In this document: in pieces, positions 14,010 through 59,763 of the stretch | How the letters are laid out: each line of letters starts with the position of its first letter | Numbering within the stretch: position 1 is the stretch's first letter | Source: Catenuloplanes niger | Lineage (GTDB): Bacteria > Actinomycetota > Actinomycetes > Mycobacteriales > Micromonosporaceae | NCBI RefSeq assembly: GCF_031458255.1 | Contig: NZ_JAVDYC010000001.1 | Location: forward strand, 806,001-870,000 | Length of the DNA: 64,000 bases | Direction of reading: 5' to 3' | Notes under the pieces: generated by a model | The model's database searches: none | Told to the model about the DNA's origin: nothing | What the model saw: only the letters and a program-made list of their open reading frames with translations | Program-made: the position numbers and the translations under genes

Positions 14010-14223
14010 CTCATCGACCGGAATTTGCGAAGCTGCAATCGCACGGTACGAGACGGTGATCGATGGGTCAAGGGGAGGAATCGTCCTGCCCAACGGCGTG
14101 CGACCTGCGGATCTTGCCGGTCATAACACTTATTCGGCGAAGCGCTCCGGAGTCGCCGTGCACGAATCGCGCAGCCGAACAAATCCGTACGTAAACCGAA
14201 AGTTTTGGATTTCCGGGCCGGAA

Positions 14224-19596: not shown

Positions 19597-19599
19597 TCA
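19512..19599. repeat. 44-bp direct tandem duplication ending at the LacI stop codon
   Basis: Units 19512-19555 and 19556-19599 both begin GGCGGCACGGGA and share GGGAGCGCGGATGCGCTCGC. They differ at a few positions. The second ends on the TGA (19597-19599) of the minus-strand LacI gene. Confidence 0.75.
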
Positions 19600-20586
19600 G
19601 GCGGGGCCGGAACTCCGGCGCACCCGCAGCACCGCGGGGAACTCACCGCGCCAGTGCGCCGCGAGTTGCCGCTTCACCAGCGCGCGGACCGCGGCGGCCG
19701 CCATCTCCTCGACGGGCTGCCGGACCGAGGACATCGGCGGGGTGGTGCACAGCGCGATCACGCTGTCGTCGAAGCCCACGATCGCCACGTCGTCCGGCAC
19801 CCGCCGGCCCGCGTCGGCCAGCGCCTGCATCGCGCCGGCCGCCACCGCGTCACTGCCGGCGAAGATCGCGTCCAGCGCCGGCTCCCGGTGCAGCAGCCGG
19901 CCGGTCAGGTCGTACCCGGAGTCACGGTGGAACTCGCCGGTCGCGGCCAGGTCCGGCAGCCCGAGCTCGTGCACCGCCCGCCGGTACCCCTCCCGCCGCC
20001 CGTCCGCGTCGGTGTGGCCGGCCGGGCCGTGCAGCGCGGCGATGCGGCGACGACCGGTGTCGAACAGGTGCCGGACCGCCGCGTACGCCCCACCGGCGTT
20101 GTCCACCCCGACGAACGGCACCGCGGGGGCGCGCACCCCCATCGAGACCACCCGGTCGCACCGGGTGTAGAACTCGCCCGCGATCTCCGCCGGCACGTTG
20201 AGCAGCACCACGCCCACGCTCACCGTGCCGGCGACGGCGTCGAGGAGCGCGGCCACGCCGGACCGGTCCACCAGGTGCACCTGCAGCTGGAGGTTGCTGC
20301 CGGCCAGCTCCTGGAGCATCCCGGCGGTCACCCGGCCGTAATAGGGGCTCACGCCGAAGGCCGCCGCGTCCTCGACCACGACCAGTTCGACGACCTCGCC
20401 GCGCCCGACGGCCAGCGCGCGGGCGACCGGGTCCGGTCGGTACCCGAGCCGGGTGATCACCTCTTGGACCCGCGCCCGGGTCTGCTCGGCGACGCCGGGG
20501 GCGTCGTTGATCACCCGCGAGACGGCGGCCTTGGACACGCCCGCACCGGCGGCGACGTCCGCGAGGGTCGGCCGCTTAGGAGACAT
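19597..20586 (-). CDS. LacI-family transcriptional regulator
   Basis: The 329-residue protein has a helix-turn-helix at residues 6-27 (TLADVAAGAGVSKAAVSRVI) and the hinge helix GYRPDPVARALAVG. A periplasmic-binding-protein-like effector domain follows (VELVVVEDAAAF, DAIFAGSDAVAAGAMQAL, DVAIVGFDDS). It is the only LacI regulator in the window and a candidate to read the LacI-type palindromes upstream of the GH62/GH64 genes and of its own divergent neighbour. ATG 20584-20586 is chosen because the longer frame adds 134 residues of low-complexity sequence. The effector sugar cannot be told. Confidence 0.93.
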   Translation of the reverse strand: MSPKRPTLADVAAGAGVSKAAVSRVINDAPGVAEQTRARVQEVITRLGYRPDPVARALAVGRGEVVELVVVEDAAAFGVSPYYGRVTAGMLQELAGSNLQLQVHLVDRSGVAALLDAVAGTVSVGVVLLNVPAEIAGEFYTRCDRVVSMGVRAPAVPFVGVDNAGGAYAAVRHLFDTGRRRIAALHGPAGHTDADGRREGYRRAVHELGLPDLAATGEFHRDSGYDLTGRLLHREPALDAIFAGSDAVAAGAMQALADAGRRVPDDVAIVGFDDSVIALCTTPPMSSVRQPVEEMAAAAVRALVKRQLAAHWRGEFPAVLRVRRSSGPA

Positions 20587-20655
20587 TGGACGATCATATC
20601 GCCATTGATCATCACCCTCGCATGCCCTGATCACCGCGTCCGACACATCCACGTA

Positions 20656-20709
20656 TCGACATCCGTGCCGATATAGCCGTAGGATCGCGGCCGGTCCACC
20701 GTGGACCGG
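20656..20709 (+). promoter_or_regulatory. Promoter with a palindromic operator for the secreted protease gene
   Basis: TCGACA (20656-20661), an 18-nt spacer and TAGGAT (20680-20685) form a good promoter. The 19-bp perfect palindrome CCGGTCCACCGTGGACCGG (20691-20709) covers the expected transcription start. It sits between the divergent LacI gene and the protease gene (GTG 20732, preceded by GGGGG), so the LacI protein is a natural candidate repressor. Confidence 0.65.
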
Positions 20710-20731
20710 TCCAGGAAATCGGGGGATTTCT

Positions 20732-22567
20732 GTGTCGTTGTCGCGACGCGTTCTCGCCGCGTTCACCGTGCTGATGGCGGCCACCGGCGCCGCTCTCACC
20801 GGTCCGGCGCACGCCGCACCACCCGCACCCGCACCACCCGCACCAGCAGCCGCGGCCGCGTCGGCCGACGTCGTCCGGGAACCGCTGCCACCCGGCTTCG
20901 ACGGCACCGCGCCCGCGCCGCTGCCCACCGCCGTGACCCGGGCCGAGATGGCCGCGAACGCGGTCCGCTGCGAGGGCGACGGCGTCACCGGTAAGCGGGT
21001 CGAGGTGCTCTACGTCCGCGAGGCCGCCCAGGCCAGCCGCTACGCGCTCTACGCGCCGACGATCCGCACCTGGATGGCGAACGTCGACGACGCGTTCAAC
21101 GACAGCGCCGCGAAGACCGGCGGCAGCCGGCACGTGCGCTTCGTGACCGAGGCGGCCGGCACCGGCTGCCAGGTCGTGGTCCGCAACGTCACGGTGCCCA
21201 ACGGCACGTTCACCGGCAACAACTGGGCCACCATCAAGGCGGCCGTGGCGGCGCAGGGCTACAACCGCACCGACCGCAAGTACATGGTCTTCGACGAGAA
21301 CAGCGCGGTCTGCGGCGGCGCCGACCCGGACAACGACGAGACGCCCGGCCCGTCGAGCCGGTGGAACCTCGGCCCCCGCTACCTGGAGGTCGGCCCCGGC
21401 TGCTGGGGCGCGAACGCGGCCGCCCACGAGCTCGGGCACCTGTTCGGCGCCGTGCGCGACTCCGCACCGCACGCGGACGGTGCCGGGCACTGCGTCGAGG
21501 AGTGGGACCTGATGTGCTACGGCTCCGCCGTCAGCGCGTACACCTGCGGAGAGAAGGACCACGACCGGCTGCTCGACTGCGGCAACGACGACTACTTCCA
21601 CACCAACCCGCCGGCCGGCAGCTACCTGGCCACGCACTGGAACTCGGCGAACAGCGAGTTCCTGATCAAGGGCAGCACGCCGGACAACGACGACGGACAC
21701 CTGCGCGGCGGCAGGTCTTACGTGATCACCAATGCCGCCACCGGGCACGCGCTGGAGCCGCTGAACGGCAGCACCGCGCCACTGACCGAGATCAGTCAGC
21801 GGCCGGTCTCCGGCGCGCAGACGCAGCGCTGGCTGCTCAACTACGCGACCGGCTGGCGGCTGGTCAACGTGGCCAGTCAGCTGTGCCTGGACGACTACTA
21901 CAGCCAGACCGCGCCGGGGACCACGTCGCTGCAGTACTACTGCGAGCAGTCCAACGGCATGGCCTGGGCGCTGCAGCCGGTCGGCAACGGCCGGTACGCG
22001 ATGATCAATTACCTGACCGGGTACGCGCTGACCAGCCAGGGCGCGCACCCGGCGAAGCTGGCCCAGTACCCGTACACCGGTGACGTCACGCAGCAGTTCA
22101 CGCTCACCCCGGTGGCCGAGTCCGCACCGGCCGCCGGCAACACGTACACGTTCACCAGCCGGCACGGCACGCACATGTCGGTGCCGAACGCCACGGTCGG
22201 CGCGTTCGTCACGCACACCGCGATCGGCACCGCGACCATCCAGCGGTGGACGCTGCAGGCCGGCAACGCGGCCGGCCGCTTCCGGATCGTCAACGCCGCC
22301 ACCGGCCTGTGCCTGCGGCCGGAGACCACCGCGACGACCGCCGGCCTGCGCCTGCAACAGGTCACCTGCGGCACCGGCAACGAGCAGAACTGGACGATCC
22401 GCCGGTACGCCGACACCCGCTACGGGTTCATCAACGTGGCGACCGGCCAGGCCGCGTCGCTGCTCACCGGTGCCGCCGGGGCGAACGTCACGCAGCAGCC
22501 CTACCAGGGCGGTGACTCCTCCGGTGGCCTCGCCGACCGGGTCTGGGGCCTGATCAAGGTCTCCTGA
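20732..22567 (+). CDS. Secreted zinc metalloprotease with tandem ricin-type lectin domains
   Basis: The 611-residue precursor has a signal peptide to about residue 28 (AHA-A) and a Pro/Ala spacer. The catalytic region (about 60-310) has the zincin motif H232-E233-L-G-H236 and a downstream CYGS/ACG-type turn with several cysteines that probably form disulfides. From about residue 328 two beta-trefoil (RICIN/CBM13-like) domains follow, with QxW-type repeats: TQRWLLNYATGWRLVNV, MAWALQPVGNGRY, IQRWTLQ, NEQNWTI. Secreted HEXXH-ricin proteins are common in actinomycetes; the substrate is unknown. The start codon is GTG with a GGGGGAT site 7 nt upstream. Confidence 0.88.
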   Translation: MSLSRRVLAAFTVLMAATGAALTGPAHAAPPAPAPPAPAAAAASADVVREPLPPGFDGTAPAPLPTAVTRAEMAANAVRCEGDGVTGKRVEVLYVREAAQASRYALYAPTIRTWMANVDDAFNDSAAKTGGSRHVRFVTEAAGTGCQVVVRNVTVPNGTFTGNNWATIKAAVAAQGYNRTDRKYMVFDENSAVCGGADPDNDETPGPSSRWNLGPRYLEVGPGCWGANAAAHELGHLFGAVRDSAPHADGAGHCVEEWDLMCYGSAVSAYTCGEKDHDRLLDCGNDDYFHTNPPAGSYLATHWNSANSEFLIKGSTPDNDDGHLRGGRSYVITNAATGHALEPLNGSTAPLTEISQRPVSGAQTQRWLLNYATGWRLVNVASQLCLDDYYSQTAPGTTSLQYYCEQSNGMAWALQPVGNGRYAMINYLTGYALTSQGAHPAKLAQYPYTGDVTQQFTLTPVAESAPAAGNTYTFTSRHGTHMSVPNATVGAFVTHTAIGTATIQRWTLQAGNAAGRFRIVNAATGLCLRPETTATTAGLRLQQVTCGTGNEQNWTIRRYADTRYGFINVATGQAASLLTGAAGANVTQQPYQGGDSSGGLADRVWGLIKVS

Positions 22568-26717: not shown

Positions 26718-26775
26718 GCGTCCGCCGGTTCAGCGTCCGCCGGTTCAGCGTTGCAGGGTCAGCGTTGCAGGGTCA
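26718..26775. repeat. Two adjacent tandem duplications at the GH62 stop codon
   Basis: GCGTCCGCCGGTTCA occurs twice (26718-26732, 26733-26747), followed directly by GCGTTGCAGGGTCA twice (26748-26761, 26762-26775). The TGA stop of the minus-strand GH62 gene (26759-26761) is the end of one 14-bp unit. Confidence 0.9.
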
Positions 26776-28294
26776 GCAGCCCCGGGCGGTACGGCAGCAG
26801 GCCGTAGTCGCCGCCGGAGCTGGGGTTGCGGCCCTGGTAGAGCAGTCGCAGGTTGCACGGGTCGATCGTCATGGTCTGGTCCGCGCTGACCCGCAGCAGC
26901 TCACCGTGGCTGATGTCGTTCGTCCAGGTGGCGCCGCTGTTCGCCTTCCCGGCGAACGGGTTGCTCTCGGTGGCGGCCTGCGGTGTCCACGAGCCGCCGA
27001 GGCTGGAGGCGGTGAACGACCGGAAGTAGCGGCCGTTCGCGCCGATCGCCTCGACGATCATCAGGTACTGGTTCTGGCCCTGCACCTTGTACACCTGCAC
27101 GGCCTCGAACAGGTTGTTGGTGGTGTCGCTCATGACGATCGTCGAGGAGGAACCGAAGCTGCCCGGGAAGTTCCCGATCGGCATGCTGGCCCGGTAGATC
27201 TTGCCGTTGTCCCCGGCGAAGAACAGGTACATGTTCGTGCCGTCACCGATCACCGCCTGGTCGATCGGCCCGGTCCCGGAGCCGGTGATGCTGCCGGAGA
27301 ACAGCGTCTGCGGCGCCGACCAGCCGTTCGGGTTCGTCGGGTCGCTGGACGTCCGGTAGGAGAACGCCGGACCGCCCCACTGGTAGGCGAGCACCCAGAT
27401 GTTGCGCGGCGCGAAGTAGAACAGTGACGGCGCCACAGTCCCGGACGACATCGCGTTCTGGCTCGCCGAGGCCATCTCCGAGTAGTTCGTGAACAGGCTG
27501 AAGTTCATCGAGCCCCAGCTGGTGCCGAAGTCGTGCGTGGTGGCGTAGACCAGCTGCCGGCCGTTGTACGGCGCCACCGTGAAGTCCTTCAGCGACACCC
27601 AGCCCGAGCGCGGCTGCGCCAGCGGGCCGGACGAGCTCCAGCGGTACGTCGACGGCAGCCCGCACGCACCGCCGGGCGGTGGCGTGGTGGGCGTGCCGGA
27701 GCCGAGCCGGACCAGCTGCCACTGCTGGTTGACGCCGTTCCAGTCGCCGTACTGCACGATGTTGCCGCCGTCCGCGGTGGACGCGCCCTGCACCTCCAGC
27801 GCCTTGCCGCTGTTGCGGTTGATCAGCTGGATGTGGCCGTCGACGTCCTGCACGCTGAACTGCTGGTTGGCCGCGTTGCTGTCGGTCCACTGCACGACCG
27901 ATCCACCGTCCGCGGTCGACCAGTTGTAGACGTCCAGCACCTTTCCGGACAGCCGTGACTTGAGCCGGTAGTAGCCGCCGCCGGAATCGACGAACTGCCA
28001 CTGCTGCTGGGTGCCGTCGTTGCGGGCCCACTGGGTGATCCGGGCGCCGTCCGTGGTGGCCAGGTTGTAGACGTCCAGGGCCTTGCCGCTGTTGCGGTTG
28101 ACCAGCACGTACCACGCGCCGGTGTCGATCGTCGCGGCCGACGCCGCGGTCGCGGTCACCACCGCGGTCACGCTGCCGACGAGCGTGGCGACCAGCGCGA
28201 CCGTCAGCGCGAGCCGCCGTCTGCTCCGGTGCTTCATGGAGGCGGCGGTGCGGGCGAACACCGCCGGCATCCGTCGCCGGTGAGGGCTTGTCAT
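26759..28294 (-). CDS. Secreted GH62 alpha-L-arabinofuranosidase with N-terminal ricin/CBM13 domain
   Basis: The 511-residue precursor has a basic n-region and hydrophobic stretch to about residue 53 (ASA-AT). A beta-trefoil CBM13 follows (three repeats: [36 protein letters not shown], with QQQW/NQQF/NQQW). After a Thr/Pro linker comes a GH62 five-blade propeller from C211: WVSLKDFT (D237, base), GPIDQAV (D345), NLFEAVQVY (E397, acid). The assignments are by analogy with Streptomyces Abf62 enzymes. GH62 removes arabinofuranose from arabinoxylan. ATG 28294 has AAAGGAA about 10 nt upstream. Confidence 0.93.
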
Positions 28295-28396
28295 GCGAAT
28301 CGGTTCCTTTCGGGTACGGGCCGCGGGTGGAGCATCCGCGGCCGGGAACAGACAGTGACGGTGATGCCGACTCGAGCGTCCAGCTCGCGACGCCCA

Positions 28397-28452
28397 TGAG
28401 AGCGCTAACATCTCTGATCGCCAATATTGCCAGCTCATTTCGACACAATCAA
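28397..28452 (-). promoter_or_regulatory. Promoter and LacI-type operator of the GH62 gene
   Basis: On the minus strand TTGATT (28447-28452), 17 nt and CAATAT (28424-28429) form a promoter. TGAGAGCGCTAACA (28397-28410) lies over or just after the start site. It has the AGCGCT core of LacI-family operators such as CebR (TGGGAGCGCTCCCA), with an imperfect right half. Confidence 0.6.
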
Positions 28453-28684
28453 GGATGGCTATCGCGAGGAATGGCACCGATACGCATCGTCGCAGCCAGC
28501 AGGCTTTCATAGCGACCGGTCGACAATGGCACGACTCGGCGGGGCATGCGCTCGTAACGGTTTTTGCCGACATACTTCTACGTCATGCCGAGAAAGTTCA
28601 CGGCGCATTTCCGGGCCCGGGACACGATCACCGAAAGTAGTTGCATCCACCGGCGGGGTTCATCGTTGAAGTGATGACCGCCTA

Positions 28685-28725: not shown

Positions 28726-28779
28726 CGCTGCTCGGCGGCGGTGAGCCAAGGTTCGTCGGCCCGCCCCGAGGGAGTCCCC

Positions 28780-30372
28780 GTGCGTACCAGGACAAGGCTC
28801 GTGCATCTGCTCGCCGCGCTCGCCGTGAGCATTCCGGTCACCGCCACCGCCGCCCGCCCCGCCGAGGCGGCCGGCCCGGCCCTGCTCCCCGTCACCGTCA
28901 TCAACGACACCGGCCGCGGTGACGCCGTCCACCTCTACGTCATCGGCACCGACCTGAACACCGGCCGGCTCGGCTACGTCAACGCGGCCGGCACGTTCGC
29001 GCCGTGGCCGGCCGGGTCGATCCCACCCTCCCCCGCGCCGGACGTCGCGATCAACGGGCCGGGCCCCGGCGGTTCGGCCACCATCCGGTTCCCGCGCGGC
29101 TTCTCCGGCCGCGCCTACTTCTCGTTCGGCGAGAAGCTCAGGCTCTTCCTCACCCCGGACGGGTTCGTCCAGCCGGCGCCGTGGAACAGCGGGGACGCCA
29201 ACCACAACATCCTGTTCGACTGGAGCGAGTTCACCTACAACGACGCGGGACTGTGGCTGAACAGCACGCAGGTGGACATGCTCTCGGTGCCGCACGCGGT
29301 CACCGTCACCGGCGCGAACGGTGCCACGAGACGCACCGGCGACCTGGTGGCCAACGGACGCAACGCGGTCTTCGACGCGATCCGGTCCCAGCCCGGATGG
29401 GCCAACACGATCAAGACCCGCTCCGACGGTACGGTGCTGCGCGCGCTCGCCCCGGGCAAGGCCGCGGAGGCGGGACTGCTGGACGCCGGCTACCTGGACT
29501 CGTACATCACGTCCGCGTGGAACGCGTACACCGCGAGGACGCTGACCGTCGTGCCGTTCGCGGACCGGCCGGCGGTCCGGTACTTCGGGCGCACCACCGG
29601 CACCGTCATGCGGTTCACCGACGGCGCCGGTGCGGTGGTGGCCTCGTTCAACAAGCCGTCCTCGGCGTCGGTGTGGGGCTGCGACCGCGACCTGTTCGCC
29701 CCGAACGACCAGGTGGTCGGCCCGATCGCCCGGACGCTGTGCGCCGCGCTGAACCGGGGCACGCTGGGCACGATCGACACCCAGCCGTCGACGGACCCGT
29801 CCCGGTTCTACCGGAACGCCACGCCGAACCACTACGCGCGGATCATCCACCAGCACATGGTCGACGGCAGGGCGTACGCGTTCGCGTTCGACGACGTCGG
29901 CGCGTTCGAGTCACTGGTGCACGACGGCGACCCGCGCGCCGCCTCGATCGTCCTGACCCCGTTCGGCGCCGGCGGTGGCACGCCGCCCCCGGTCGGCGCA
30001 CCGCTGGTCAGCGACTGGAACGGCAAGTGCGTCGACGTGCCGAACGGCTCGTTCGTGGACGGCGCGCCGCTGCGGATGTGGACCTGCAACGGTTCCGCCG
30101 CCCAGCGGTGGACGTTCACCGGCGACACGGTCCGGGCCGGCGACCGGTGCATGGACGTGGCCTCCGGCGCGACCGGCAACGGCGCCCCGATCCAGCTCTA
30201 CGCCTGCAACGGCACCGGCGCGCAGCGGTTCGTCCTCTCCGCCACCGGCGATCTGGTCAACGTGGCCGCGAACCGGTGCGTCGACATCAGCGAGTGGAAC
30301 GCCGCCGACGGTGCCCGCCTCCAGCTGTGGGACTGCGCCGGCACCGCGAACCAGAAGTGGCACCGGGGCTGA
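28780..30372 (+). CDS. Secreted GH64 endo-beta-1,3-glucanase with C-terminal ricin/CBM13 domain
   Basis: The 530-residue precursor has a signal peptide to about residue 30 (AEA-A). The GH64 catalytic domain spans about 35-395. Motifs typical of laminaripentaose-producing glucanases are LPVTVINDTG, VHLYVIGTD, FSFGEKLRLFLTPDGFVQPA, ILFDWSEFTYND, GLWLNSTQVDMLSVPHAV, and NHYARIIHQHMVDGRAYAFA with FDDVG. The C-terminal beta-trefoil (from about 405) has three Q-x-W-type repeats (AAQRWTF, GAQRFVL, ANQKWHRG). It degrades fungal or algal beta-1,3-glucan. GTG 28780 is preferred; GAGGGAG lies 5-6 nt upstream. Confidence 0.9.
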   Translation: MRTRTRLVHLLAALAVSIPVTATAARPAEAAGPALLPVTVINDTGRGDAVHLYVIGTDLNTGRLGYVNAAGTFAPWPAGSIPPSPAPDVAINGPGPGGSATIRFPRGFSGRAYFSFGEKLRLFLTPDGFVQPAPWNSGDANHNILFDWSEFTYNDAGLWLNSTQVDMLSVPHAVTVTGANGATRRTGDLVANGRNAVFDAIRSQPGWANTIKTRSDGTVLRALAPGKAAEAGLLDAGYLDSYITSAWNAYTARTLTVVPFADRPAVRYFGRTTGTVMRFTDGAGAVVASFNKPSSASVWGCDRDLFAPNDQVVGPIARTLCAALNRGTLGTIDTQPSTDPSRFYRNATPNHYARIIHQHMVDGRAYAFAFDDVGAFESLVHDGDPRAASIVLTPFGAGGGTPPPVGAPLVSDWNGKCVDVPNGSFVDGAPLRMWTCNGSAAQRWTFTGDTVRAGDRCMDVASGATGNGAPIQLYACNGTGAQRFVLSATGDLVNVAANRCVDISEWNAADGARLQLWDCAGTANQKWHRG

Positions 30373-51316: not shown

Positions 51317-53296
51317 GTGACCGACCCGCCGCTGTTCGCCGCCGCCCATGCCGGAGACCTCGATACGGTCCGGCGCCTGATCCGCGAGGGCGCGGCGCTG
51401 GAGGAGCGCGGTTCCTGGGGCCGCACCCCGTTGGCCGCCGCCGCGCGGGGCGGGCACGCGGACGTGCTGGAGCTGCTGCTGGCGGCCGGCGCGGACCCGG
51501 CCGCCCGGGACAACCAGCGCCACGTCCCGCTCGACCACGCGGCGACCGCCGGTGTCGCCCGGCTGTTGCTCGCCGCCACCGGATCGGCCGAACCGCACGG
51601 CCGCGCCACGGCCGGACCGCACGGCCACGCCACGACCGAACCGCACGGCCGCGCCACGGCCGGACCGCACGGCCACGTCACGGCCGGGATGCACGGCCGC
51701 GTCACGGCCGGGCCGCACGGCCGCGTCATGGCCGGGATGCAGGGCCACGTCACGGCCGGCCGGGACGAGGTCGTGGCGGTGCTGCTCGAGGGTGGCGCGG
51801 ACCCGCACACGCGCGACTCGCACGGACGGTCCGCGCTGCATCACGCCCGTACCGCCGGCATGGTGCGGATGCTGGTGGCCGCCGGTGCCTCACCGCACGC
51901 GATCGACCGGGACGGGCTCACACCGCTGCACGGGGCGCCGGACGCGGGGATCGCGCGGGCGCTGCTGGCCGCCGGTGCCGACCCGCACGCGACCGACCCC
52001 CGGGGTCGCACGCCGCTGCACACCGCGACCGCGCCGGACGTGATCGAGGTCCTGCTCGAGGCGGGCGTGCCGGCCGACGTGCGCGACGGCCGGGGCTGGA
52101 CGCCGCTGGCGTACCTGGCGGGCGGCCACTCCGCGGACTCGGTGCGCGCCATCCGGCTCCTGATCGACGCCGGCGCGGACGTCACCCGCCGGAACGCCGA
52201 CGGGATCGCGCCGATCCACCGGCTGCGGCGGTGGTCGAGCACGCTGCCCGAGTCCGCCGCGCGGGCCGCGATCCGGCGGCGGCAGCTGGCGGTGGCCGAG
52301 CCGGCCGTGCACGCCGGGCTGGTCCGCCGGGTCGCGGCGGACCGGGCGATCGGGCTGCCGCAGCGCTGCGCGGTCGTGCATCCCGGCGGCGCCGAGGCGG
52401 TCACGGCCGGGCCGGACGGCATCCTGGTCCGCTGGTCGCTGGAGGGTGCCGCGCCACGGCCCACCGAGGTCACCGGCACCGACCGGCCGCCGTTCGCCGC
52501 GCTCGCCGTCTCCCCGGACGGCACGCTGCTGGCGCTGGCCGGTGGCGAGAACCAGCCGCTGGAGATCCGCCGCTGGGACCGGCTGGACGAGGTCGTCGCC
52601 GTCGTCGAGGAGCTGCCGTCCTGCGAGTCGGTGTCGTTCTCGCCGGACGGCCGGCTGATCGCGGCCGGCTGGTGGTCACCCGGCGGCGGTCACGGACTCG
52701 CCGTGATCACGCCGGCCGGCCGGCGGGTGTCCTACGTCGACGCGCACGCGCACGGCGTCGAGGGCCTCGCCTTCGCGCCGGACGGCCGACTGGTGGTCTC
52801 CTGGCTGGGCGACGGCGCCGGTGAGCTCGCGCTCGTCGATCCGGACCCGGACGACCCCGGCGACGTCACCTTCGAGGGCATCGCCTGCCGGGTCGAGGCG
52901 CTGTCCTTCGCCCCCGACGGCCGGCGGCTCGCGGTCTGCGGCGCCGCGCCGTCCGACGTGCGCACCTCGACCGCCGAGCCCGGCATGATCGTGGTCTTCG
53001 ACGCCGTCACCCGCCGGCCGGTGTGGGAACTCACCGTCGACCGCCGGGTCAAGCAGCACCTGCAGAGCTGGCACGAGACGGTCAAGCCGCTGTCCGTCTG
53101 CTTCACCCCCGACGGCCGCCGCGTGGTGGCCGGCCTGACCGGTGGCCTGCTGATCCTGGACGCGGACACCGGCGCGGTCGTGCACGCCCGCCCCTGGTGG
53201 CCGCGGAACGTCACCTCCGTCCACGCCGTCGACCCGTCATCGGTCCTGGTCACCACGCCCGACGGCTTCCACCGCATCGCCGTCCCGACCGGCTGA
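51317..53296 (+). CDS. Ankyrin-repeat / WD40 beta-propeller fusion protein
   Basis: The 659-residue cytoplasmic protein has ankyrin repeats at about 1-80 (LFAAAHAGDLDTVRRLIREG, GRTPLAAAARGGHADVLELL). A 56-residue histidine/glycine repeat insertion follows (7 copies of an 8-residue unit like PHGRATAG). More ankyrin repeats lie at about 155-310 (DGLTPLHGAPDAGIARALLA, GRTPLHTA). A WD40-type propeller fills 330-659 (LAVSPDGTLLALAGG, SVSFSPDGRLIAAGW, GLAFAPDGRLVVSW, ALSFAPDGRRLAVCG, CFTPDGRRVVAGL). Both halves are protein-binding scaffolds with no catalytic site visible. The gene starts at a leaderless GTG and stands alone. Confidence 0.88.
   Translation: MTDPPLFAAAHAGDLDTVRRLIREGAALEERGSWGRTPLAAAARGGHADVLELLLAAGADPAARDNQRHVPLDHAATAGVARLLLAATGSAEPHGRATAGPHGHATTEPHGRATAGPHGHVTAGMHGRVTAGPHGRVMAGMQGHVTAGRDEVVAVLLEGGADPHTRDSHGRSALHHARTAGMVRMLVAAGASPHAIDRDGLTPLHGAPDAGIARALLAAGADPHATDPRGRTPLHTATAPDVIEVLLEAGVPADVRDGRGWTPLAYLAGGHSADSVRAIRLLIDAGADVTRRNADGIAPIHRLRRWSSTLPESAARAAIRRRQLAVAEPAVHAGLVRRVAADRAIGLPQRCAVVHPGGAEAVTAGPDGILVRWSLEGAAPRPTEVTGTDRPPFAALAVSPDGTLLALAGGENQPLEIRRWDRLDEVVAVVEELPSCESVSFSPDGRLIAAGWWSPGGGHGLAVITPAGRRVSYVDAHAHGVEGLAFAPDGRLVVSWLGDGAGELALVDPDPDDPGDVTFEGIACRVEALSFAPDGRRLAVCGAAPSDVRTSTAEPGMIVVFDAVTRRPVWELTVDRRVKQHLQSWHETVKPLSVCFTPDGRRVVAGLTGGLLILDADTGAVVHARPWWPRNVTSVHAVDPSSVLVTTPDGFHRIAVPTG
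51590..51757. repeat. In-frame minisatellite, 7 x 24 bp
   Basis: Seven consecutive 24-bp units (GACCGCACGGCCACGCCACG-type) encode an 8-residue His/Gly repeat that interrupts the ankyrin array. All seven keep the frame and differ at only a few positions each. Confidence 0.9.
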
Positions 53297-54664: not shown

Positions 54665-56300
<1,636 letters not shown>

Positions 56301-56345: not shown

Positions 56346-57890
56346 TCACTCCGCCAGCGGCGCGCGGACCAGGAACGAGCTGTCCGCGCGGAACGCGTCG
56401 GTGCCGTCGGACCGGTCCACCCACAGTTCGCCGCCGCGGTGACGCAGGAAGTAGCCGGGGTAGTTCTTCGACTCCAGCGTCACCGCGCCCGGCCCGGCAC
56501 CGGGCCGCGGGCAGAACGTGGCGTCACCGCGGAACAGTTCGGTGCGGTCGCGGATGTTCAGCACCAGCCGCCAGGACGCGTGCCGCAGATACCGCCCGTC
56601 GGAGAACCGGAACGTTACACAGGCCGGGTCGGCCAAGCCCTCGAGCGCCTCGAACGTCGCCTGGGTGCGGACCGCCTCGGCACCGGCGGGACCGGCCGGG
56701 GTCAGCACGCCGACGCTGCGGGCGACCGCGAGGTAGGTGCCGGGCGCGTTCACGGACTCCAGCGACACCGGGCCGGGCCGCACCACGCCGGGCGCCACCG
56801 CACCGGGCGGCACCGTGCCGGTGGCGGCCGGTGCGGTGCCGCCCGGTGCCGGAGCGGCCACCGGGCCGGGCGCCGCGACCTCGACCGCGCCGACGGTGAC
56901 GCCGGTGGCCAGCACGCCCGCCAGCATCGCCGCCACGATCGGATGCGCCGCGAGCGCCTGGGCCAGCACGCCGGCCGCACCCGCGCCACCGGCCGCGACC
57001 GGTGCGGCGCCCGCGACGGCGCCACCGCCCGCGGTGCCGGCGGCGGTCGTCCCGGCGGCCAGCGCGGTGCCGGCCGCCGCCTTGCCGACCGTCGTCTCGG
57101 CCAGGACCGCGGCCGCCAGGCCGGCCGGGACCGGCAGCAGCGTCAGCGCCGGGAACAGCCGCTCCACCGGGAGCAGACCGCGGGCGGCCGCGCCGCACAC
57201 CGGGCAGCCGCGCACGTGCCGGGCCGCGCGCTTGCGCCACAGCGGTCCCGGCACGCCGTCCCACCGCTGCATCGCGGCCGCGAGTCGCGCGCACCGGGGC
57301 CGGGCCTCCAGCGCGCGCACGACCGCGCGGCTGGTCTCGAGGCGCTCCCGCATCCGCTGGATCCGCACGCCCGCGTGGGCGACGCCGACGCCGAGCGCGG
57401 CCGCCAGCTCCGCGCGGTCCATCTCGCGCGCGCTCTCCAGCCACCACAGCGTCAGCAGCACCCGGTCGTCCGGGTCGAGCCACCGGCCGGCCCGCCGCAC
57501 CGTCCGGCGCTGCGCGAACAGCTCCGCGCGGGCCATCGCACCGGCCTCGAACGCGGCGTCCGGCAGGTCGGCGGCGTCGTCCAGCACGGTCGTCCGCTCG
57601 GCGGCCCGCGCGGAGCGCTCCAGGTGCGTGCCGACGCGGCGGACTGCGATCGACACCAGCCACAGCCGGAAGCTCTCCGGCTCGCGCAGCGACGGAAGGC
57701 GGCGCAGCGCCCGGACCATCACGTCCTGGACCACGTCGTCGACGTCCGGCCGCCCGTCCAGCCCACGGCGCACGATCGTGTAGACCAGCGGAAGGTGCGC
57801 GGTGATCAACTCGTCCAGGGCCCGGGCGTCCCCGGCCCGCGCCGCGACGACCAGGCGTGTCTCGTTCTCGCCGACCGCGCGCAACGTCAC
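56346..57890 (-). CDS. ECF sigma factor fused to zinc-finger motif, membrane segment and extracellular CBM42 (AbfB) domain
   Basis: The 514-residue one-chain sensor has ECF sigma region 2 at about 10-85 (VDDVVQDVMVRALRRLP, SFRLWLVSIAVRRV) and region 4 at about 130-195 (LDPDDRVLLTLWWLESAREM, ELAAALGVGVAHAGVRIQRM). An H225-x3-C229-x2-C232 motif follows (anti-sigma zinc-finger signature), then an Ala/Gly linker and one TM at about 316-338. The C-terminus (375-514) is an AbfB/CBM42 beta-trefoil with three repeats (NAPGTYLAV, DGRYLRHASWRL, NYPGYFLRH), DATFCPR and DAFRADSSF. CBM42 binds arabinofuranose side chains. Inference: substrate binding outside alters sigma activity inside. It lies 88 bp after the DUF4832 gene on the same strand, next to GH10. 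Confidence 0.92.
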   Translation of the reverse strand: MTLRAVGENETRLVVAARAGDARALDELITAHLPLVYTIVRRGLDGRPDVDDVVQDVMVRALRRLPSLREPESFRLWLVSIAVRRVGTHLERSARAAERTTVLDDAADLPDAAFEAGAMARAELFAQRRTVRRAGRWLDPDDRVLLTLWWLESAREMDRAELAAALGVGVAHAGVRIQRMRERLETSRAVVRALEARPRCARLAAAMQRWDGVPGPLWRKRAARHVRGCPVCGAAARGLLPVERLFPALTLLPVPAGLAAAVLAETTVGKAAAGTALAAGTTAAGTAGGGAVAGAAPVAAGGAGAAGVLAQALAAHPIVAAMLAGVLATGVTVGAVEVAAPGPVAAPAPGGTAPAATGTVPPGAVAPGVVRPGPVSLESVNAPGTYLAVARSVGVLTPAGPAGAEAVRTQATFEALEGLADPACVTFRFSDGRYLRHASWRLVLNIRDRTELFRGDATFCPRPGAGPGAVTLESKNYPGYFLRHRGGELWVDRSDGTDAFRADSSFLVRAPLAE

Positions 57891-57978
57891 CTCATCCTCC
57901 GGAGAGGAATCGACTGTGAACGATTGTGGCGGGCCACGTCAACATCTGCCGGGCATCGATGTCGCGGCGCGGCCGGGC

Positions 57979-59763
57979 TCAGCCGACCGTCACGGTCGCG
58001 CCCAGCTGGTTGAAGCCGGTCACCGCCTCCCAGGTGCCGGTGTTCGCGGTGCGGATCGCGTACTCCGGCCGGTCGGGCAGCAGCGGATCCGGCAGGTTGA
58101 GCAGCAGCTGGTAGCTGCCGGGCGCGAGCGTGCCGGGCAGCGTGAGCGTCTCGGTGACGGTCGTGGTGGTGCCGGCCGCCCAGCGGCGCGGGTCCGCGGT
58201 GAGCGGCAACCGGGTGACCGCCCCGGTGGACGTGGCGCGCAGGATCAGCTCGGCGCCGCGCGGGTTGATCGGCGCGGCCCAGCCGTCGTTGCGCACGGTC
58301 AGCCGGACCGGCAGCGCGCCACCGGCCGTGGCCTTCTCCGGGTACGTGCCGTCGACCAGCGTGAACCGGTAGCCGAGCTGCCGTTCCACGGTCGTCAGGC
58401 AGCCACCGGCGCGGAAGCCGTCGATCACGCCCGGGTGGTAGTCGTGGTTGAGGTACGTCCAGTGGAACCGGGCCATCTCCGCGGTCGCGACCGGGCACCG
58501 GGTGCGGGTCTCGTGCACGGCGCACGTCTCGCCGCCCATCGCGGTGTACCGGGTCTCGGCCGCCAGGTACGGGTACTCGGCCGCGGTGTCGGTGTACGTG
58601 CCCTGGTCGGTCGCGTCGGCCAGGAAGCAATCGTTGTGGTGACCGGTGCGGGCGGCCGCGGAGCCGTCGTGGGCCTGCGCGTCCGTGAGCGCCGCGGTGC
58701 CGTACATGGTGCGCTTGAAGTTCGGCGTGCGCAGCTGCACCATCCGGGTGGCCGGCAGCACCTGGAGAATCTTGTCGTGGACCGCCTTGCGGGCGGCCCG
58801 GTCGGCCGCCGTGACGACGCCGTTGTTGCCGAAGTTCTGCGTGTAGTAGCCCTCGCCCCAGGCACCGACGAAGCCGGACTGCATGACCTCGATGACGTCG
58901 GCGTTGCGGCTCAGGTACGGCGCGAGCTGGTCGAGGTGGGCTAGGACGCGGTCCTTCGGGGCGTCGGCGCCGTCCGCGGAGTCGGTGTAGGCGAACCGCA
59001 ACACCATCTTCAGACCCGCCGCGCGTACGGTGTCGAACTGCTTCTGCAGATGGGCCAGCGTCGCCGCGTCGATCGGCCCGGTGCGGAACTCGCGCAGGTA
59101 GAACACGCACATGACCAGGGAGATCTTCGCGTCGGTACGGTACGAGCGCAGCGCCGCCTCGCCGAACGCGGCCGAGTCGCACTCACCGGCGTGCCGGTAC
59201 AGGCCCCGTTCCGGGTTCGCGATGATCTCGTCGGACGCGGCGTAGGTGACGGTGCCGCCCGGAACCGGCGACGCGGGCGGGTCCGACGGAGCCGGTGAGG
59301 CCGGCGCGTCCCCGTGCCGCTGGGTGATCTTCTCGGAGGTCTGCTCCGGCGCCTCGGCCTGGAAGACCAGGTCGGTGTCGCCCGGCGTGGCCGTCTCACC
59401 GATCGCGGCGCGCGGCAGCGTCCAGGTCGCGACGCCGTCCGCGTGCGTGTGCGGGACCGGGGTGACCGGCGTCCAGTTCCAGCCGGCCCCGCCGTGCCGG
59501 TAGAGCGTCGCGTTCTCCAGCAGGAACTCCGCGCCGACCGCACCCTGCGCGAACCCGGTGGCCGCGTCCCGGTCGGTGTCGAGGTACGCCCGGGTGAACT
59601 CCGGCGTCCCGGAGTACGCGAACCGGTAGGTCACGTCCGTGGCGGTGCTGGTGGCCGAGGCCTCGGTGATCGACGCGTTCGCGGTCGCGGCCAGGACGAC
59701 GCCGAGACCGGCGGTCAGCGCGAGCGCGAGCCCACCACCGATCCAGCGGAGTGTCGAGGGCAT
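57979..59763 (-). CDS. Secreted DUF4874/DUF4832 protein
   Basis: The 594-residue precursor has a signal peptide to about residue 30 (ANA-S). A beta-sandwich head follows (about 31-140, VTYRFAYSGTPEFTRAYLDT, RDAATGF), then a Pro-rich linker. A TIM-barrel-like DUF4874 domain (about 175-340) has EIIANPERGLYRH, FDTVRAAGLKMVLRFAYTDS, VIEVMQSGFVGAWGEGYYT and NFKRTMYG. The C-terminal DUF4832 domain (about 345-594) has HHNDCFLADATDQGTY, YPYLAAETRYTAMGGETC, HWTYLNHDYHPGVIDGF and a beta-sandwich PVRLTVRNDGW. Its placement upstream of the sigma-CBM42 gene suggests carbohydrate chemistry. The GEW/GEG-type acidic motif could be catalytic, but activity is unknown. Confidence 0.88.
   Translation of the reverse strand: MPSTLRWIGGGLALALTAGLGVVLAATANASITEASATSTATDVTYRFAYSGTPEFTRAYLDTDRDAATGFAQGAVGAEFLLENATLYRHGGAGWNWTPVTPVPHTHADGVATWTLPRAAIGETATPGDTDLVFQAEAPEQTSEKITQRHGDAPASPAPSDPPASPVPGGTVTYAASDEIIANPERGLYRHAGECDSAAFGEAALRSYRTDAKISLVMCVFYLREFRTGPIDAATLAHLQKQFDTVRAAGLKMVLRFAYTDSADGADAPKDRVLAHLDQLAPYLSRNADVIEVMQSGFVGAWGEGYYTQNFGNNGVVTAADRAARKAVHDKILQVLPATRMVQLRTPNFKRTMYGTAALTDAQAHDGSAAARTGHHNDCFLADATDQGTYTDTAAEYPYLAAETRYTAMGGETCAVHETRTRCPVATAEMARFHWTYLNHDYHPGVIDGFRAGGCLTTVERQLGYRFTLVDGTYPEKATAGGALPVRLTVRNDGWAAPINPRGAELILRATSTGAVTRLPLTADPRRWAAGTTTTVTETLTLPGTLAPGSYQLLLNLPDPLLPDRPEYAIRTANTGTWEAVTGFNQLGATVTVG

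Follow-up and report, generated by a model that had tools for sequence, protein, structure and literature searches.

The literature consulted on related sigma systems (PMC5826349, PMC8999054, PMC10766802, PMC4711584, PMC12203970) already includes descriptions of a one-chain plan for the ECF52 and ECF53 groups, together with the hypothesis that such proteins act through proteolysis or a conformational change (PMC5826349, PMC8999054, PMC10766802). For SCO4117, the best understood member, a truncated form without the extension is reported to be active, and the excerpted account names no ligand (PMC5826349). A preliminary description of the locus studied here set its one-chain arrangement against the separate RsgI and SigI proteins of Clostridium thermocellum, which overstated the case because the ECF52/ECF53 architecture had already been described. 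The architecture itself is known; the branch carrying a CBM42 domain, with its linkage to GH62 and GH10 genes, was met in none of the papers listed. None of the literature matches listed concerned a CBM42/AbfB-fused sigma factor, and the primary ECF classifications may list one.

The gene lies in a window of 64,000 nucleotides (the whole stretch of DNA that was analysed) from Catenuloplanes niger, whose 9.74 Mb genome is assembled as one contig. We propose, with a rough probability of 0.55, that its product is a membrane-tethered arabinosyl receptor and sigma factor in one chain, kept autoinhibited, and that the gene forms part of an arabinoxylan set.

Domain Architecture

The gene is a single open frame of 514 residues with GTG as start codon, and GGAGG at 57896-57900 lies 5 nt ahead of that start. 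The following features were assigned along the chain.

56346..57890, minus strand: whole gene, ECF sigma, zinc/anti-sigma-like domain, membrane segment and CBM42 (514 aa, GTG start)
57330..57869, minus strand: sigma-2 and sigma-4, residues 8-187 (Sigma70_r2, TIGR02937, phmmer to AlgU/SigmaE, model)
57147..57293, minus strand: fused zinc anti-sigma-like domain, C200-x24-H225-x3-C229-x2-C232 and the helices after it, residues 200-248 (motif, model helices; putative inhibitor)
57102..57158, minus strand: first hydrophobic stretch, residues 245-263, probably non-spanning, with an LLPVP motif (hydropathy, insertion score)
56892..56948, minus strand: likely membrane helix, residues 315-333 (hydropathy, insertion score; low model confidence)
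56367..56765, minus strand: AbfB/CBM42 beta-trefoil formed by residues 376-508; R436-H437 and D456 in its beta subdomain are invariant, as are C424/C460 (Pfam, 9fnk fold, RsgI5 sequence)

Both sigma regions named in the preliminary description were recovered. Sigma70_r2 matches residues 28-95 (Pfam, E 8e-14), and the ECF model TIGR02937 (NCBIfam) covers residues 24-185 with 67.4 bits against a cut-off of 42.9. The Pfam region 4 model gave no match in the 514-residue protein at E 0.1; region 4 is supported by TIGR02937, by the phmmer alignment of residues 8-187 to AlgU chains and by the model helices, which places the protein among ECF sigma factors with sigma-2 and sigma-4 regions. In the AlphaFold2 model, built on 17 aligned sequences, pLDDT is about 90 for most sigma helices (58-74 at residues 91-120), for the zinc-motif helices and for the trefoil, with a dip at 445-452. 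It falls below 50 for residues 269-365, and pTM is 0.38; the arrangement of the domains is therefore not given by the model. Foldseek ranked 9fnk first for this model, followed by other CBM42/AbfB structures and then by SigmaE-RseA and AlgU-MucA. A frameshift joining two genes, raised in the preliminary description as a possible source of error, is ruled out by the identical fusion in independent assemblies (15 scanned loci and 5/5 genus genomes), with recurrence in 18 further Micromonosporaceae loci.

The HxxxCxxC motif reported earlier reads HVRGCPVC at residues 225-232 of the window protein, and the motif is common to 38/38 proteins (those of 37 loci and that of the window). C200, a candidate fourth zinc ligand, keeps a 24-residue spacing to H225 in all 38. 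The spacing (C/H)x24-25-HxxxCxxC defines zinc anti-sigma (ZAS) domains, and the C-x24-HxxxCxxC form occurs throughout the set. Judged by this motif, the chain seems to carry its own fused anti-sigma domain. Hence, of the earlier proposal that a single chain dispenses with an anti-sigma factor, the single chain stands, while an anti-sigma part appears to be built into it.

The one membrane segment of the preliminary description is likely yet unproven, as the chain holds two hydrophobic stretches. Their mean hydropathy is 1.95 for residues 245-263 and 2.18 for the stretch ending at 336, and the second scores better as a membrane helix on an insertion scale. A single helix formed by the second stretch is thus the likely topology, followed by a low-complexity linker and then by the trefoil. 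The CBM42 would then probably lie outside the cell; the C-terminus is placed there because sister proteins hold, at the same position, modules taken as normally secreted, and the invariant Cys pair aligns to a Cys pair of a fungal AbfB. These two observations, along with the LLPVP core and the weaker insertion score of residues 245-263, make it very improbable that both stretches span the membrane, or neither, with a cytoplasmic CBM that binds something else, even though a mean hydropathy of 1.95 would allow the first stretch to be counted as a span.

The trefoil is complete, as had been claimed, and the profile search assigned AbfB to residues 376-508 (Pfam, E 3.2e-39). Its closest solved structure, both by sequence and by fold, is 9fnk, the CBM42 of the anti-sigma-I factor RsgI5 of C. 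thermocellum; Foldseek also matched 3kmv and 1wd3, in line with a predicted CBM42 fold. R436-H437 and D456 align to the residues that are R398-H399 and D418 in the chain numbering of 1wd3, a fungal AbfB; its H399 and D418 are presumably the arabinofuranose-binding H416 and D435 of the literature numbering. R436, H437, D456, C424 and C460 are invariant in 17/17 sequences. In the third (gamma) subdomain, H484 is kept in only nine and D503 in 13 of the 17, and the His and Asp residues of the arabinofuranose pockets are present in the window protein. Such pockets suggest an arabinosyl ligand. RsgI_N gave no Pfam match in the 514-residue protein up to E 0.1.

Relatives and Paralogs

A scan of genome contigs yielded 45 loci, eight of which (L048 and L050-L056) were excluded because their match was confined to the CBM or to the sigma end. 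The 37 retained loci comprise 15 AbfB-fused proteins and 22 that have the common chassis but another C-terminus. Pfam, run on nine of the 37, assigned AbfB in four, Glyco_hydro_cc in two, GH99 in two and CAP in one; by alignment to these typed proteins, the 22 sister proteins divide into 19 Glyco_hydro_cc-like, two GH99-like and one CAP-like. The AbfB domain of the fusions was recognized by Pfam in L012, L013, L023 and L049 and by alignment in all 15. At L014:6247-9461, Actinoplanes sp. M2I2 has a tandem pair of AbfB-fused sigma genes, the first copy of which has a weaker AbfB score and does not group with the window type in the tree.

The window-type AbfB-fused sigma factor is present in 5/5 Catenuloplanes genomes examined, and so is a second AbfB-fused one, paralog B, which in the source genome (L075:9236-10882; G000:C1:1624253-1625872) has in its vicinity one gene each for a SpoIIE-type, an ATPase-like and a TPR protein. 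GH62 or GH10 was not found in the 19-20 kb surrounding paralog B in any of the five. The CBM42 might thus serve an envelope or development sensor that perceives the wall or the extracellular arabinosyl polymers of the cell itself. Arabinose and xylose are frequent among Micromonosporaceae whole-cell sugars, which would suit this idea; the linkage of window-type loci to plant-polymer enzymes speaks against it, and we consider it improbable. A further chassis protein, C, without an AbfB match, occurs in four of the five genomes, and the region of the fifth (L087) holds no clear frame. In the source genome (L084:7995-10319; G000:C1:2452264-2453085), protein C has Glyco_hydro_cc (Pfam), and its gene adjoins one for a CBM20-bearing alpha-amylase, a hint at a different polysaccharide.

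In a tree of the sigma/zinc region, 19 window-type proteins split from 32 others (B-type, C-type, GH-type, CAP and the L014 tandem copy) with support of 100/99. The only ECF52-like protein included, the NPCBM-fused L102, fell on the window-type side with an end branch of 7.2, its place being unsure. The AbfB-domain tree is too poorly resolved to tell one AbfB acquisition from two (window-type and B-type).

Linkage to Arabinoxylan Enzyme Genes

The neighbouring GH10 and GH62 genes claimed for the window are both present, and the following genes were considered.

54981..56300, plus strand: GH10 xylanase carrying a CBM2; this gene and the sigma gene are convergent (Pfam; start chosen at 54981)
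26759..28573, minus strand: GH62 arabinofuranosidase with a ricin-B lectin domain (Pfam)
57979..59763, minus strand: DUF4832 gene (Pfam)
19597-20988: LacI gene of the window

The window also holds a GH64 beta-1,3-glucanase gene with ricin-B lectin (28741-30372), divergent from GH62, and an open frame of 659 aa at 51317-53296 with ankyrin repeats and then a WD40-like beta-propeller, in which residues ~90-150 form a low-complexity H/G-rich repeat.

A GH62 and/or GH10 catalytic domain lies within about 8 kb at 11/15 AbfB-fused loci and at 0/22 sister loci, contig ends shortening L019, L024 and L044. Among the 15, GH62 occurs at eight and GH10 at four, with both at L015. The genus regions add linkage at the window and L079 and its absence at L076 and L078 (L077 and L049 are one gene, counted once), while GH62 or GH10 was found in 0/10 B-type and C-type genus regions. 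Taken together, 13/19 window-type loci have GH62 and/or GH10 nearby compared with 0/32 sister and paralogous loci (p 5.7e-8, uncorrected for relatedness), and six of the 19 lack both. The arrangement around the sigma gene varies: GH62 may diverge from it, converge with it or follow it in the same orientation, and GH10 may follow it, converge with it or stand a few kb upstream. Genus genomes of ~9-11 Mb contain only 1-3 GH62 and 3-7 GH10 matches each, so chance proximity to the sigma gene should be rare.

A second sample was drawn from 46 family genomes, 21 of them picked for carrying the promoter element described below, and the best 30 matches were fetched. Within 1.5-kb flanks, GH10 or GH62 was found at 8/22 window-type loci and 0/8 others; this sample overlaps the first by at least two identical loci (L012, L013), and two of the 22 have no AbfB in the fetched stretch. 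A DUF4832 gene was found near chassis genes at 0/37 loci and, among the genus regions fetched, at L079 only. By gene neighbourhood, the link of the sigma gene to arabinoxylan degradation is strong.

Promoters and Operators

The preliminary description proposed that transcription of the enzyme genes is tied directly to the sigma factor and named a shared ECF-type promoter as a check. An ECF-type bipartite promoter was looked for upstream of the sigma, GH62 and GH10 genes and was not found; the GH genes have housekeeping-looking promoters with LacI-type operators, and a direct promoter link is not supported. The candidate sites in the window are as follows.

57913..57942, minus strand: candidate housekeeping-type promoter of the sigma gene, TTGACG-N18-CACAGT
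54895..54923, plus strand: candidate GH10 promoter, TTGCCG-N17-TATGTT (by eye)
54920..54933, plus strand: LacI-type operator-like TGTTGGCGCTCACA at the GH10 promoter
28424..28453, minus strand: promoter element CTTGATTGTGTCGAAATGAGCTGGCAATAT before GH62
28397..28410, minus strand: LacI-type operator-like TGTTAGCGCTCTCA at the GH62 promoter

The true GH62 start probably lies downstream of the promoter at 28397-28453. For the sigma genes, TTGANN-N16-18-YANNNT, a pattern selected after inspecting the upstream regions, occurs within 150 nt upstream of 16/20 AbfB-type genes compared with 0.26/20 in shuffles, and it resembles a housekeeping rather than an ECF-type promoter.

A common operator sequence, GTKARCGYTMAC, was counted at 11 sites in 18 window-type loci (314 kb) and none in 32 control loci (559 kb), the pattern having been composed after viewing the counted loci. 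The sites fall in 7/18 window-type loci, ahead of sigma, GH62, GH10 or GH43 genes. In the window, the GH10 and GH62 promoters carry near versions of it (54920-54933 and 28397-28410), and the sigma gene has only the half-site-like CGTTCACA upstream. An unbiased 8-mer comparison of 28 target and 212 control regions placed CAYCTGCC on top (12 vs 5), which looks like conserved sigma coding sequence. The LacI-type operator word CGYTCACA was present in 10/28 vs 3/212 and AACRCTTT in 7 vs 0; TGAATGCG and CRTAACAG were further words. TAACRCTTTT was tried as a -35 and dropped, with 11 sites vs 4 for the reversed sequence in five genus genomes, occurrence in both orientations and no -10 partner. Separately, a TAACACTTTT-like element lies before GH10 (54796-54806) and, with one mismatch, at 14124-14133 in a gap beside the sugar importer operon; with at most one mismatch, the window has three such sites compared with 0.15 expected.

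The element before GH62 recurs. In the form SGAAANNNNNKGGCARYAT it stands ahead of GH62, GH10 or GH43 at eight sites, counted over the window and the 18 window-type loci together, and has none in 559 kb of control sequence, a count that is not independent as the pattern was drawn from those window-type loci. The genome scans are independent of the pattern, save for the window's own site and G078 (the same as L013). Genus-wide, all seven sites of SGAAANNNNNTGGCARYAT, with T at the K position, precede GH62 (2), GH43 (4) or GH127 (1). In 101 family genomes there were 35 sites compared with four for the reversed control; G089:5490597 and G014:7942285 were excluded from gene assignment, three sites (L118, L120, L134) have no clear gene after them, the frame at L125 has no Pfam match, L128 precedes an amine oxidase gene, and for L116, L117 and L132 the assignment to GH62 follows from position rather than Pfam. 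As a wider observation, TTGA-N7-GAAA-N5-TGGCARYAT (window 28424-28453; L103-L109, L116-L140) precedes many secreted CAZyme genes of Micromonosporaceae. By its sequence, the element resembles a promoter of the type TTGA-N17-CARYAT whose spacer is conserved (GAAA).

Comparison of genomes with and without the sigma factor gave a suggestive association, biased by sampling and phylogeny. The element precedes arabinoxylan-type genes in 13/27 genomes with the sigma factor and 0/24 without (p 5e-5, phylogeny uncorrected), in a sample where 25 no-hit genomes were hand-picked from 76, two of the 27 (G058, G079) have no AbfB in the fetched stretch, and absence of an AbfB-type relative is uncertain, as it rests on the best 32 candidates scored per genome. 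The exact element stands before GH62 in 5/30 upstream regions of genomes with the sigma factor vs 0/29 of those without (p 0.05); with one mismatch allowed, the count becomes 5 vs 2 (p 0.42), and neither result is significant. A similar core with TTGACA and TGGGAGCGCTCCCA was found before GH9-type cellulase genes in seven of 12 element-bearing genomes in which no AbfB-type relative was found, the cellulases being called by CBM_4_9 and CelD_N, with the GH9 domain itself matched in two. The box accompanying that core is presumably CebR-like. Because TTGACA versions stand before GH9-type cellulases and the GH62 test is not significant, we do not assign the element to the AbfB-fused sigma factor as its promoter, nor take it as evidence of direct control.

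These sites bear on a different division of labour, in which the sigma gene is co-repressed with the arabinoxylan locus by a LacI-type regulator and drives other genes (envelope, development, secretion) like SCO4117, while GH62, GH10 and GH43 are transcribed by the housekeeping sigma factor and derepressed by sugars. TTGA-N17-CARYAT-like promoters before GH62, GH10 and GH43, several with LacI-type operators, agree with such a scheme, as do the cellulase promoters just described and the reported effect of SCO4117 on development and antibiotics (PMC5826349, excerpt). It accounts less readily for a sigma gene that stays near GH62 or GH10 across several gene orders and has a matching ligand domain, or for the AbfB-fused sigma factor in 13/13 genomes with the exact element before GH62, GH43, GH10, GH127 or GH27. 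We regard this joint scheme as somewhat unlikely. Tentative as well, with the odds leaning against it, is the fuller proposal of a one-protein arabinoxylan receptor and sigma factor that belongs to an actinobacterial family built, in parallel to the clostridial RsgI set, on one sigma/anti-sigma/membrane chassis with exchangeable outer modules (CBM42, GH-like, CAP), and that would directly drive the GH62, GH43 and GH10 promoters.

Proposed Mechanism

In the autoinhibited receptor that we favour, the zinc anti-sigma-like domain that follows the cytoplasmic ECF sigma factor in the chain would keep that factor inactive, and one membrane helix would carry the CBM42, probably outside the cell. The CBM42 would bind alpha-L-arabinofuranosyl side chains, with arabinoxylan as their most likely source. 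Once bound, or crowded on the polymer, the protein could be cleaved close to or within the membrane and lose its anti-sigma part, freeing the sigma factor for RNA polymerase. Release by proteolysis is probable by analogy with IutY and the truncation of SCO4117. Its location, and in some genomes a common LacI-type operator, would assign the sigma gene to the arabinoxylan set (GH62, GH10, GH43). Against this receptor count the negative search for an ECF-type promoter, the non-significant GH62 test, the six window-type loci that lack GH62 and GH10, the incompletely kept residues of the third CBM subdomain, the presence of two hydrophobic stretches, and the low pTM with its low-confidence linker.

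Comparison with Known Systems

ECF52, represented by SCO4117 of Streptomyces coelicolor, shares with the window protein an actinobacterial origin and the order of ECF sigma, zinc finger, membrane region and carbohydrate-binding module in one chain; SCO4117 differs in its smart00776 module, its Pro-rich linker and its developmental regulon (PMC5826349, excerpt). The C-terminal module of the window protein is AbfB. Membership in ECF52 is not supported, given this difference in the C-terminal module and the long, unsurely placed branch of L102. We take smart00776 to be NPCBM.

ECF53, compared by description only, likewise combines a sigma factor with a fused zinc finger and membrane helices, some members having predicted and unvalidated GH or CBM modules (PMC8999054, PMC10766802, excerpts). 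The window protein shows this architecture of sigma factor, zinc finger, membrane helix and GH/CBM module, and its sister proteins carry Glyco_hydro_cc and GH99, although CBM42 goes unmentioned in the excerpted group descriptions. IutY (ECF243) of Pseudomonas putida also unites sigma and anti-sigma in one chain and undergoes proteolysis with Prc and RseP (PMC8999054, excerpt), but it serves iron-starvation cell-surface signalling and has no CBM.

RsgI5/SigI5 of Clostridium thermocellum uses a CBM42 as the outer sensor of a sigma pathway, and its CBM is the closest one solved. It differs in consisting of two proteins and in its RsgI-type self-cleaving periplasmic domain, where the window protein has a short low-complexity linker. 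SigI is not known to be of the ECF type. The window protein, in contrast to the pairing of a separate RsgI_N anti-sigma factor with SigI, is one ECF-type chain. Other RsgI proteins carry GH10, CBM3 or PA14, a comparable swapping of modules (PMC12203970, excerpt).

Ligand, release and regulon can be tested together in the CBM42 branch, since its ligand is predicted, its pocket is conserved and candidate enzyme genes lie nearby in genera that are in culture; an old guess about such proteins thereby becomes testable. Set beside RsgI5, this branch suggests that one sugar-binding fold was recruited for sigma control in two phyla.
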